DNA from: Bacteroidota bacterium
GTDB taxonomy: Bacteria; Bacteroidota; Ignavibacteria; Palsa-1295
NCBI GenBank assembly: GCA_030706745.1
Contig: JAUZNX010000002.1
Span: forward strand, 124,001 to 188,000
DNA: 64,000 bases
Direction of reading: 5' to 3'
Shown in pieces: positions 46,313 through 50,225 of the stretch (position 1 is the first letter of the stretch; the number at the start of each line of letters is the position of its first letter). The position numbers were made by a program, and so were the translations under genes. Under the pieces are notes generated by a model. That model saw only the letters and a program-made list of their open reading frames with translations, ran no database searches and had not been told where the DNA came from.

Positions 46313-46362
46313 GACGAAATCCCAAACATCCCAGTCAAATTGTCGTATATTTGTAATTGCTT

Positions 46363-46800
46363 ATGAGAAGGCTCCTCTTTATTGGCATTTTCGCCGCGAT
46401 TACCGCATTTGGCTTCGATGTTGCGGGTCTTGTCGATTCTTTTACTGCACGGCCTGATGGTGATGGAATAACGCTCGATTGGCGTTCCGAGGTTGAGAGC
46501 GGTGTCAAGAATTACACGATCGAACGGTGCGATGTTCGGAGTGCCAATGATTTTCAGGAAGCTGGCCAGGTTCAGCCATCCGGCAGCTACTCCTCGTATC
46601 GCTTTCACGATGGCCACTTGAGCATTGCGCCTATTGCCGGCCAAACCGGTAGCGCCAAGCCATTGGCCGATGCCTACAAGTATCGCATCCGAATCAATCT
46701 GACGGATGGCGAACTTAGCTATTCGCAGACCATCAATGTGACGAAGCCCTCCAGCGGAGTCCGCCGTACCTGGGGCATGATCAAAGAGATGTTCCACTGA
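46363..46800 (+). CDS. Secreted FN3-like protein
   Basis: A 145-residue protein, signal peptide MRRLLFIGIFAAITAFG, then a single fibronectin-type-III-like sandwich: LVDSFTARPDGDGITLDW, ESGVKNYTIERC and YKYRIRINLTDGELSYSQTI. This is the FN3 variant often adjacent to T9SS sorting domains in FCB surface proteins, but here it stands alone without a tail. Start set at the ATG at 46363, two codons after an in-frame TTG. Confidence 0.75.
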   Translation: MRRLLFIGIFAAITAFGFDVAGLVDSFTARPDGDGITLDWRSEVESGVKNYTIERCDVRSANDFQEAGQVQPSGSYSSYRFHDGHLSIAPIAGQTGSAKPLADAYKYRIRINLTDGELSYSQTINVTKPSSGVRRTWGMIKEMFH

Positions 46801-46907
46801 AGCGCTGGCTGAGCGCCGACCCCCTAAGGTTGTTGGAACGGCCAGTCCCGGCCTGAAGTTTAGAATTACGGGTTGTACCATTCGTGCAATCACATTCTGA
46901 TGGCCTC

Positions 46908-47504
46908 ATGAGACGTTCACTCCTCCATATCCTGTTTCTGACCTTGATCCCGGTCGTGGGTGTTGCCGGGAATGGGTGGAATGAGCCGAAGCTCGCGACG
47001 AAGATCTTCCAGGATTCGACGATCTTCACGCTCCATCTCGATCCCAAACAGTCGCACAAAGCTGGTTCGACATTCGAAGTGACCATCCATGTAAAGCCCG
47101 GCGCAGGCTGGCATGTCTGGAGTGCCGACATGTCCTCCGAAGGTGGACTCACGCCGCTCAAGGTTACTCTGCCCGGCGATCTCTCCAAGTATTTCGAACT
47201 CGTCAGCTTCCACGAGACCGGGGACGTGAAAGTTGGTTATGACTCAGCATTCGATGTTGCAACGCGTGCGCATTACGGCGAGTACGATGTGATCGCAAAG
47301 GTTTCCGTCCGCGAAGCAGCGCCAACACCGTTGCCGTTCTTCTTGTATGTCAATTACCAGACCTGCAACGAGGTCGTTTGTGAGCCGCCGCGCTGGTACC
47401 AGGTGCCGATGACCGCGCTCGGCGCGAAGCCCATCGAATTTACCTTCGCCGATGCCGATAGAAGCCAACCCGCTAAAATGGGAACAGCAGGAGGGGAGCG
47501 ATGA
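46908..47504 (+). CDS. DsbD N-terminal-domain protein, first copy
   Basis: A ~198-residue exported protein (MRRSLLHILFLTLIPVVGVA signal). The immunoglobulin-like nDsbD fold is visible as FEVTIHVKPGAGWHVWSADM, EGGLTPLKVTLP and the redox pair in LYVNYQTCNEVVCEPPRW. In DsbD that pair relays electrons to periplasmic partners. Here there is no membrane or thioredoxin part, so it is a stand-alone nDsbD. It overlaps the next gene by four bases (ATGA). Confidence 0.83.
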   Translation: MRRSLLHILFLTLIPVVGVAGNGWNEPKLATKIFQDSTIFTLHLDPKQSHKAGSTFEVTIHVKPGAGWHVWSADMSSEGGLTPLKVTLPGDLSKYFELVSFHETGDVKVGYDSAFDVATRAHYGEYDVIAKVSVREAAPTPLPFFLYVNYQTCNEVVCEPPRWYQVPMTALGAKPIEFTFADADRSQPAKMGTAGGER

Positions 47505-48049
47505 GACGAATGCAAGTCATTGGGCTTGTTCTTATCACCTCCTTGACTCTCGCGGTGGTGAAGGGGTATGCGAACGATCCGAAGCGGATCGAGCGTCGAA
47601 TCCATCTTGACTCGACGATCCTTAGCCTTTCAATGCATCCATTGAAGATACTTCACAATGGAGATTTGGTGAAGGCTCGCATCCATGTCGATGTCCATGA
47701 TGGTTGGCAAATCGGCGCTCTATCTGATTCGCAGAAGAATAATTGCGAATGCCAAATGGCGTTCCGTGTACATCTTCCTGATTCTCTTGCGAGTAACTAT
47801 GAGATAGTGTCGCTGAGAGAAACAGGAAAAGTAACTACGGTTTTTGATTCCGATTTCCTCGAGTTGAGATCCTACCATACGGAACCCTTCGATGTGATTG
47901 CAACTCTAAAGGCACGCAGGAAAGTTAAGACTTTGGCTGACTTCCGATTATTCGCCGGTTACCAGGCGGTCAACATGATTAGGAAGCAATGTCTGCCACC
48001 CAGCTGGTATGAAGTATCGCTTAAAAAACCAGACATCGTAGCGAATTAA
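47501..48049 (+). CDS. Degenerate DsbD N-terminal-domain protein, second copy
   Basis: A 182-residue exported protein sharing the layout of its neighbours (DPKRIERRIHLDSTIL, VKARIHVDVHDGWQIG, HTEPFDVIATLKA). The redox loop reads LFAGYQAVNMIRKQCLPPSW: the first catalytic Cys is replaced and only the second remains. It carries a different Cys pair (NNCECQM, near residue 84) in place of the usual segment. It has therefore lost the canonical nDsbD function or been repurposed; alternatively the new pair forms a structural disulfide. Confidence 0.78.
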   Translation: MRRMQVIGLVLITSLTLAVVKGYANDPKRIERRIHLDSTILSLSMHPLKILHNGDLVKARIHVDVHDGWQIGALSDSQKNNCECQMAFRVHLPDSLASNYEIVSLRETGKVTTVFDSDFLELRSYHTEPFDVIATLKARRKVKTLADFRLFAGYQAVNMIRKQCLPPSWYEVSLKKPDIVAN

Positions 48050-48101
48050 GTGCAGAGCGGATTCATGAAATTGCAATTCAAGAGAGAAATTAATTCATAA
48101 A

Positions 48102-50225
48102 GTGAGAAGCATCCTCCGATATATTGCTCCCTTTGCACTGCTCTGCGCGGTCCTCGCAGCAGCACTGACCAGTCGTGCGACCGATCCGAAGCGGATTGAG
48201 CCAAAGCTTCACATGGATTCGGCAATCTTCAAGATGAAGCTCGAGCCAAAGGCTCATCCGCAGGCTGGCAAGACGTTTCAGGTCCGAATTCATGTCGATC
48301 TCCGGCATCCATACCATATTTGGAGTTCATACATGTCGGATGAAGGCGGACTGATCCCTCTTAGTCTGCAGGTACCGGACGCAATTTCGAAGTACTTCGA
48401 AATCGTTGGAAAACTCACAGAGACCGGCAAAATCATTCCAAAGTATGACTCAGGCTTTGAGATGGTCACGAAGGCCCATCACACTCCTTTTGATGTAATC
48501 GCTACAATAAAGGTTAAGGCGAATTCCAAGGACCCCGTCCCGTTTTCGCTTTTCCTGAAGTATCAGACCTGTAACGAAACTCAATGTTTGCCACCGGCCG
48601 TCTATGTGGTACCGATGGATATCCTTGGTGAGAAGCCATTGATGCTAACCATCGCCGAGGGTACTCCTGATACGACATCGGAGAACATGGCAAGTGCGCC
48701 GCGCATTGATAGCGCGGACAAGGCGATGCTGCGGAACAAAGATTCATCAGTGAAGATGAGTCAAAGTTCTCCGGGGGCATCGAGTCAGCCGCCGTCGAGT
48801 CCGGGTGGCGGAGAATCTGCCGCAAAAGGTGATGTGGTCGCAATCGCGCAGGATTCGATTTGGAGCTTCATCTTCGCTGCGATGGGATTTGGCTTCCTCG
48901 CATTGCTCACGCCGTGCGTCTTCCCGATGGTGCCGATCACGGTGAGCTTCTTTACCAAGCGTAATGCCGGCAGCCGCAAGGAAGCAACGAAGGACGCACT
49001 GCTCTATGCGACGGGTATTGTCGTTACGTTTGTTCTGCTCGGGTTTTTCCTATCGTTGATTGCTGGTCCTGCCGGCATCAATCAGTTTGCGGCGAACCCG
49101 TGGGCGAACCTTGCCATTGCGGCGATTTTCATTGCCTTCGCGCTGAATCTGTTCGGCTTGTTCGAGATTGGTATTCCCTCATCGGTCTTGTCCAAGCTCA
49201 ACATGACGGCGCAGAAATCGAAGAACAAAGTATTCTCGGTCGTGCTGATGGGCTTCGTATTTTCTCTGACGAGCTTTACCTGCACGGTGCCGTTCGTCGG
49301 CACGCTGATGGTCACGTTCTCACGCGGCTCGTGGTTCGTGCCACTCATCGGGATGGTGGCGTTCGCGACGATCTTCGCGCTGCCGTTCTTCCTGTTGGCC
49401 CTCTTCCCGAACCTGATGAAGCAGCTTCCGCGCTCGGGTACGTGGATGAACAATGTGAAAGTCGTGATGGGGTTTTTGGAAATCGCGGCCGCGCTTAAGT
49501 TTTTCTCGAACGTCGATCTCATTTGGTCGTGGCATTTCTTCAACCGCGATTTGGTGCTTGCGGCCTGGGTCGCTATTGCGATCATGACTACGATCTATTT
49601 GCTCGGTCGCTTCCAGTTGTCGCATGACACTCCGGTCGAGCATATTGGGGCACTACGGCTTTGCATCGCGGTGATGTTTTTGTCGGCGGGCATTTATTTG
49701 TATACCGGCTTCCACAATCAGCCATTGGGCGATCTCGATGCATTCCTGCCACCGGCTTCCGAAGTTGGCGAAGTCGGCGCGAACATGGCTTCGATGGTGC
49801 CATCTCAAAAAACCGCGACTCAAAGTAACCAGCCGCAGAGTTGGATACCAAGTTATCCGGCCGCACTTGCAGAGGCGAAGAAGACAGGTAAGAATATCTT
49901 TATCGACTTTACCGGATATACCTGCACGAATTGCCGCGCAATGGAAGCGTCTGTGTTTAGCCGACCAGATGTGAAGGAGATGTTCGGCAGCTTTGTACTT
50001 GCGCGACTCTATACGGATAATGGCACATCGCTCAACGATTCGAATCGCGATTTGGAAGAATCACGGTTCAACACGATCGCGTTGCCATATTACGTCATCG
50101 TCTCTCCCGACGATAAACCGCTGGCCACGGTCCCCGGCTTCACGCGGGATGTCGAGTCGTTCAAGGCCTTCCTGAAAGTGGAGAAGCCTGCCAGCGCGAC
50201 AAGCGTGGCAATGCTGGGACGATAA
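48102..50225 (+). CDS. dsbD: Thiol:disulfide interchange protein DsbD
   Basis: A full three-domain DsbD of 707 residues. Periplasmic nDsbD with redox pair C157/C162 (YQTCNETQCLPP); a linker rich in Ser/Pro/Gly; a transmembrane domain from ~245 with the cysteine motifs TPCVFPMVPITVSFF and TSFTCTVPFVGTL; and a C-terminal thioredoxin-like domain with YTCTNCRAM (C608, C611). It carries electrons from cytoplasmic thioredoxin across the membrane to exported thiol proteins, likely including the TlpA-like lipoprotein at 24.8 kb (inference). Starts with GTG at 48102. Confidence 0.93.
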   Translation: MRSILRYIAPFALLCAVLAAALTSRATDPKRIEPKLHMDSAIFKMKLEPKAHPQAGKTFQVRIHVDLRHPYHIWSSYMSDEGGLIPLSLQVPDAISKYFEIVGKLTETGKIIPKYDSGFEMVTKAHHTPFDVIATIKVKANSKDPVPFSLFLKYQTCNETQCLPPAVYVVPMDILGEKPLMLTIAEGTPDTTSENMASAPRIDSADKAMLRNKDSSVKMSQSSPGASSQPPSSPGGGESAAKGDVVAIAQDSIWSFIFAAMGFGFLALLTPCVFPMVPITVSFFTKRNAGSRKEATKDALLYATGIVVTFVLLGFFLSLIAGPAGINQFAANPWANLAIAAIFIAFALNLFGLFEIGIPSSVLSKLNMTAQKSKNKVFSVVLMGFVFSLTSFTCTVPFVGTLMVTFSRGSWFVPLIGMVAFATIFALPFFLLALFPNLMKQLPRSGTWMNNVKVVMGFLEIAAALKFFSNVDLIWSWHFFNRDLVLAAWVAIAIMTTIYLLGRFQLSHDTPVEHIGALRLCIAVMFLSAGIYLYTGFHNQPLGDLDAFLPPASEVGEVGANMASMVPSQKTATQSNQPQSWIPSYPAALAEAKKTGKNIFIDFTGYTCTNCRAMEASVFSRPDVKEMFGSFVLARLYTDNGTSLNDSNRDLEESRFNTIALPYYVIVSPDDKPLATVPGFTRDVESFKAFLKVEKPASATSVAMLGR

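Follow-up and report, generated by a model that had tools for sequence, protein, structure and literature searches.

A tandem array of nDsbD genes upstream of DsbD

We analyzed a 64,000-nucleotide stretch of DNA, hereafter the window, from a Bacteroidota bacterium of the class Ignavibacteria (GenBank assembly GCA_030706745.1, contig JAUZNX010000002.1, positions 124,001 to 188,000 of the forward strand), which carries two genes for stand-alone nDsbD domains followed by the gene for a full DsbD. According to PMC7347389, nDsbD receives its electrons from the DsbD C domain, hands them to DsbC, CcmG and DsbG, and serves as a redox interaction hub in the periplasm. The three open reading frames (ORFs), which we call nD1, nD2 and DsbD, are consecutive and lie head to tail on the plus strand of the source genome (G000; 3.8 Mb across 30 contigs), and the middle one encodes a domain that has lost the first of its two catalytic cysteines (Table 1). 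A preliminary description of the window, made from its letters, had recognized three consecutive nDsbD domains with a degenerate middle copy, and the ORFs, their strand, the alignment and the predicted fold agree with it. The active-site motif reads YQTCNEVVC in nD1 and YQTCNETQC in DsbD, both with a C-x4-C pair, versus YQAVNMIRKQC in nD2, where V...C takes the place of the catalytic pair in the hairpin. This replacement had likewise been pointed out, together with a different cysteine pair gained by the middle copy (NNCECQM); both motifs are present, and a copy of this kind is kept in relatives.

The assignment of nD2 to the nDsbD family comes from alignment and structure. In Pfam, nD1 (20.8 bits) and the N domain of DsbD (20.0 bits) both stay under the DsbD_N (PF11412) cut-off of 25, and nD2 fails this cut-off and has no Pfam match; since even the window's full DsbD is under the cut-off, the failure of nD2 says little. 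A phmmer search of nD1 against PDB sequences gave nothing up to E 1, and a scan of genome contigs with nD2 as query found no relative. nD2 is alignable to both of its neighbors, nD1 and the DsbD N domain.

In the predicted structure, nD2 is still an nDsbD fold. Its model (predicted local distance difference test score, pLDDT, 90.1; predicted template-modeling score, pTM, 0.85) best matches the Neisseria meningitidis nDsbD (6dps_E; Z 10.6, root-mean-square deviation 2.5, 112 aligned), followed by the E. coli nDsbD entries at Z 8.9-9.8 (1vrs_B and 1jzd_C at 9.8), ScsB (6c29) at Z 9.3 and the C103S mutant 2k0r at Z 9.1, with unrelated Ig-type rows at Z 6.8 and lower. The model of copy 3 of G002, the single-Cys copy of a genome of the same genus, has a pLDDT of 88.9 and finds the same eleven entries at Z 9.7-10.9, with unrelated rows from 8.0 down. 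For both models the best-matching nDsbD structures include partner-bound forms. Mapping the cysteines onto a structure prediction, as the preliminary description had proposed, puts the CEC of nD2 at residues 59-61, between predicted strands 46-49 and 66-68, where it borders a stretch of lower confidence (mean 68, residues 51-60).

The third gene encodes DsbD, which is the electron-supplying membrane hub of the array. It matches DsbD_TM and Thioredoxin_7 above the Pfam cut-off, and its six catalytic cysteines (C157, C162, C272, C394, C608 and C611) recur without exception across the 12 DsbDs of the family that were aligned. DsbD_TM has exactly one match in G000 and one strong match in each of the seven genus genomes, to which G002 and G006 add a weak second match of ~30 bits, just above the cut-off. 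Judged by eye, the N-termini of nD1 and nD2 resemble Sec signal peptides without a lipobox; for nD1 an alternative GTG start lies at 46884. Counted on predicted starts, a 4-base start/stop overlap like that between nD1 and nD2 is possible at 9 of the 13 junctions across the genus (2 of these 9 also with a start at -1), which favors coupled translation.

Table 1. Features of the nDsbD array, in coordinates of the window
Feature	Position	Strand	Basis
nD1, stand-alone nDsbD with intact C-x4-C pair	46908-47504	+	ORF list, alignment
nD2, single-Cys ('monothiol') nDsbD; Val for the first catalytic Cys, second kept, new CEC	47501-48049	+	
Full DsbD (nDsbD, DsbD_TM, thioredoxin-like C domain), GTG start	48102-50225	+	
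Hairpin of the nD2 active site, degenerate but with the second Cys (YQAVNMIRKQC)	47960-47992	+	
NNCECQM, the Cys pair gained by nD2, in the loop leading to strand C	47738-47758	+	
ATGA overlap of nD1 stop and nD2 start	47501-47504	+	

The array is a feature of the genus

A genus-level tandem array of periplasmic electron-exit domains, supplied by one DsbD, is present across the genus genomes found. Searching 61 genomes with nD2 as query gave matches in 13, all of one family, with best E values per genome from 4.5e-121 (its own) to 8.2e-11. In 7 of 7 genus genomes (G000-G006) nDsbD genes precede DsbD, with totals of 3, 3, 4, 3, 3, 2 and 2 nDsbDs; the preliminary description had raised the conservation of the three-gene order, and an array of this type, with two to four nDsbDs, occurs in the whole genus set. 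In G006, a 486-residue ORF (locus L030, 4969-6429, plus strand) separates the stand-alone nDsbD from DsbD. Six genomes of other genera of the family have the fused domain only, in the surroundings of DsbD; a more sensitive search gave a second nDsbD match in three of them (G007, G011 and G012), at loci that were not read.

Single-Cys copies occur in 5 of the 7 genus genomes, and their place is regular. In all five genus arrays with at least three nDsbDs, the copy directly before DsbD lacks the first Cys and has the second, in the window as in G001, G002, G003 and G004; V, I, L, V and V stand in place of the lost residue. This is suggestive of a position effect, with degeneration in the copy next to DsbD or, in G151, a genome from another family of the class, in the last stand-alone one; the orthologues behind these counts are not independent of one another.

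The single-cysteine copy evolves fast under constraint

The cysteine that nD2 retains, the second of the hairpin, is invariant in 52 of 52 rows of our working alignment. Among the five single-Cys copies, the C, P and P of the C-x-P-P motif belong to the 22 invariant positions of 148 filled columns, and E, D and S of the cap region are likewise invariant. Between G000 and its sister genome G001, identity is 53.0% for nD2 (96/181), 68.7% for nD1 (136/198) and 84.5% for DsbD (596/705). The G001 orthologue of nD2 is intact and sits at the same place in the array. The preliminary description had allowed for a middle gene broken or absent in all relatives; this intact gene with 53% identity, together with the single-Cys copies of G002-G004, speaks otherwise.

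Neither nD2 orthologue (G000, G001) contains a stop, despite nearly saturated synonymous sites. Neutral simulations with 0.3, 0.65 or 1.3 changes per site (5000 runs each) left a stop-free frame in a fraction of 0.0144, 0.0014 and 0.0004 of the runs, respectively, so that survival of nD2 under neutrality is unlikely. The NG86 values of 0.47 and 2.39 for nD2 are usable loosely only, with synonymous sites near saturation, and other dN/dS estimators were unstable. These data suggest that nD2 is a fast but constrained gene, a reworked rather than a dead copy. They also bear on the improbable alternative that nD2 is a redundant paralogue decaying under relaxed selection, its cysteine and frame being intact by chance: fast divergence, the loss of a catalytic residue and the lack of such a copy in G005 and G006 are what it would predict, and the stop-free orthologues, the low simulated fractions, the recurrence of single-Cys copies in 5 of 7 genomes and the well-predicted fold argue against it.

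The descent of these copies was followed in trees. The single-Cys copies of G000 and G001 group with full support, that of G002 stands beside a two-Cys copy of G002 (97/94), and the five copies need 2 or 3 changes on two trees. The preliminary description had taken the common DPKRIE opening of copies 2 and 3 as the mark of a recent duplication, which we reject: the two copies have 61 residues in common over 172 aligned positions, and the same opening, in nearly the same codons, is found in both copies of G001. The approximately unbiased (AU) test does not reject a clade that unites copies 2 and 3 from G000 and G001 (p 0.379), but the duplication would then predate the split of these genomes.

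A cysteine pair in the loop before strand C

Ahead of strand C, the loop of the single-Cys copy contains CEC in G000 and CC in both G001 and copy 3 of G002. The 152 nDsbDs that we aligned comprise 142 two-Cys domains, 5 single-Cys domains, 4 without either Cys and 1 unreadable (L053, with X from unread bases at the first Cys; it is kept within the 152 and omitted from the 3/6 and 3/9 counts). A loop Cys occurs in 0 of the 142 two-Cys domains, and the loop pair occurs in 3 of the 5 single-Cys copies, or 3/9 of all readable copies without the first Cys. The association gives a Fisher p of 0.00015, and of 0.0016 on a smaller set in which G000 and G001 are counted once, in domains chosen by similarity to the genus or by signs of tandem copies and hence not a random sample. 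The smaller set leaves out domains with E >1e-5 or a length of <105 residues, as well as loci that repeated genomes of the genus or family, and removal of 13 duplicates brought it from 127 to 114; from the phylum loci, domains with E >1e-3 were dropped.

Two readings take this pair as their starting point. One is that the resolving thiol has moved from the hairpin of nD2 to the neighboring loop, in convergence with the C-x-C of CsgC, which appears rather unlikely. If true, an electron-exit domain on the same DsbD hub would have become a reductase of mixed disulfides or sulfenic acids, or an isomerase. The other is that the CEC and the kept Cys of nD2 together coordinate a metal such as Cu(I) or Zn. 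Three thiols within one domain in G000 and the Cys pairs in the same loop of G001 and of copy 3 of G002 would suit such a site; the copies of G003 and G004, each with one domain Cys outside the leader region, have no site to share with them, and we regard metal binding as improbable.

A putative single-thiol adaptor

In the reported nDsbD structure, a hairpin beneath the cap loop carries Cys103 on one strand and Cys109 on the other, and Cys109 is thought to initiate reductant transfer (PMC7347389, in its account of the active site). By motif order and fold, we equate the kept Cys of nD2 with E. coli Cys109 and the Val site with Cys103. With this equation, nD1 would act as a diffusible nDsbD, with electrons coming in from the DsbD C domain and going out to partners. 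nD2, having kept the partner-facing Cys, could still dock and become linked, by a mixed disulfide, to a partner or to the C domain of DsbD; with an aliphatic residue in the place of Cys103, this mixed disulfide could not be closed into a disulfide of its own hairpin, and it would be released by a second thiol, either the partner's or that of DsbD. In the three species with a loop Cys pair, the releasing thiol would perhaps come from nD2 itself.

We favor, tentatively and with a probability of about 0.42, the reading that nD2 is a single-thiol adaptor beside a normal two-thiol exit domain, all fed by one DsbD. It is supported by the second Cys kept in 5 of 5 copies, the invariance of C, P and P in C-x-P-P, the intact gene in G001 with its low chance of neutral survival, the nDsbD fold, the restriction of the loop Cys pair to copies without the first Cys, and three other genomes in which a stand-alone two-Cys nDsbD precedes a DsbD with a Cys-free N domain. 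Monothiol glutaredoxins provide the comparison for an nDsbD-type single-thiol adaptor. A lineage that multiplies nDsbD and keeps a single-thiol version would be the natural counterpart of a laboratory single-Cys mutant, and would allow direct capture of the partners of each copy. Furthermore, the array would show how exported targets share a single source of electrons in the membrane, and would test whether all nDsbD functions need the Cys pair.

Several findings weigh against an adaptor role. nD2 is the fastest-evolving gene of the array, and of the 5 single-Cys copies only 3 retain ETG in the cap region. Those of G003 and G004 lack loop cysteines, which means that a resolving pair is no general feature, and G005 and G006 are without a single-Cys copy altogether. 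One origin for the five single-Cys copies is neither shown nor rejected (AU p 0.15). Finally, the last stand-alone copy of G151 (L151, 3763-4260, minus strand) has lost both Cys with its frame still open, which fits a non-redox role.

The preliminary description had offered a decoy, a chaperone or a metal-binding variant as possible roles of the degenerate copy, and these would be candidate alternatives to an adaptor. The G151 copy without either Cys leads to the alternative close behind the adaptor reading, although unlikely taken by itself, that nD2 is a non-redox binding or chaperone-like Ig domain. With structural cysteines, it would retain or present proteins for export, in the manner of CsgC with curli subunits, or dock on the partners of DsbD. 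According to PMC3173608, CsgC is an Ig protein likened to nDsbD, and its strand C opens with a C-x-C at the junction with the BC loop. CsgC inhibits amyloid formation, and mutation of its C-x-C had little effect there, as summarized in PMC4838910. The CEC of nD2 may lie in the same loop; unlike CsgC, nD2 also retains the second Cys of nDsbD and belongs to a DsbD operon, and G001 and G002 have CC instead of C-x-C. CsgC was not among the best 50 structural matches listed for the nD2 model or for that of G002 copy 3. Pure binding would not require the second Cys and PP that are invariant in all five copies, and a curli client is absent, as CsgG (PF03783) was found in 0 of 7 genus genomes by a search that recovered it in E. 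coli and 3 others of 14.

The adaptor reading can be set against the known forms of the domain. nD2 shares with the nDsbD of DsbD (DsbD alpha, PF11412) the fold, the second active-site Cys followed by PP and a gene adjoining DsbD, and differs from it in being a separate protein that has lost the first Cys of the catalytic pair and carries two cysteines in a different loop. The C103S mutant of N. meningitidis nDsbD (PDB 2k0r) is the single-Cys state of the same active site, but it was made in the laboratory with Ser, whereas here an aliphatic residue stands at this site in five species and the gene is kept. The N-terminal region of ScsB (PDB 6c29), which we take to be a DsbD relative with two Ig domains fused before its membrane domain, resembles nD2 in structure; its domains are fused, whereas those of the array are separate ORFs with stops between them.

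Extra nDsbD domains elsewhere in Bacteroidota

We surveyed a class-wide set of 245 genomes and a phylum-wide set of 247, which overlap, and read chosen loci, those of the phylum being 20 loci from 19 of the 247 genomes, picked for signs of extra copies. Extra nDsbDs, stand-alone or fused in tandem, recur in both class and phylum. One two-Cys stand-alone nDsbD lies ahead of DsbD in G122, G132 and G167, and in G110 such a copy precedes a 261-residue ORF with nDsbD; G151 has three stand-alone nDsbDs, a gap of ~660 bases and then DsbD. Two two-Cys nDsbDs are fused in one ORF of DsbD length in G245, G246 and ten further phylum genomes, and the membrane domain was confirmed in the ORFs of L166 and L170. 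The fused-tandem ORFs of L166, L167, L170, L171, L173 and L175-L181 are 811-892 residues long. Stand-alone copies lie directly before the fused gene in G302 (one) and G373 (two), and on another contig in G376.

In three genomes (G279, G323 and G341; L186, L187 and L189), a two-Cys stand-alone nDsbD is followed by a DsbD whose N domain is free of Cys and whose membrane and thioredoxin-like domains were confirmed. Here the catalytic nDsbD seems to have moved to a separate gene, an arrangement from which it can be argued that stand-alone nDsbDs are able to act in trans.

The array of the window is thus a member of a recurrent Bacteroidota arrangement, with extra two-Cys nDsbDs before or inside DsbD, and hence of a known kind. 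A copy with the first Cys lost and the second kept sets it apart, as none was seen in the loci read elsewhere, the 38 domains of the phylum loci included. In titles and abstracts of open-access papers we recognized no single-Cys or tandem nDsbD; as far as our searches go, a single-Cys nDsbD that is retained and carries two cysteines in a different loop is new.

The preliminary description had further suggested that one membrane hub serves several exported targets. The single strong DsbD_TM match per genus genome and the stand-alone nDsbDs able to act in trans are in line with the first part of this idea; a link between the size of the array and the number of thioredoxin-fold clients finds no support in the counts. 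AhpC/TSA has 11-16 matches in the seven genus genomes and 11-13 in four other genomes of the family, and Thioredoxin_2 has 4-9 and 3-6, respectively, in the 11 of 13 family genomes covered (G009 and G010, 67% complete, were left out). The sole exception is G002, where the largest array coincides with the highest client counts.

The gene upstream of the array

Directly upstream of nD1, on the plus strand (46357-46800), lies a gene for a small secreted-looking protein. It has no Pfam match, and no second copy was found in the genome. We considered this protein as a client of the array and rejected it, as zero Cys are conserved across its six copies. Its C-terminal 17 residues (PSSGVRRTWGMIKEMFH) are identical in 6 of 6 aligned copies from the same genus, and the remainder is variable.

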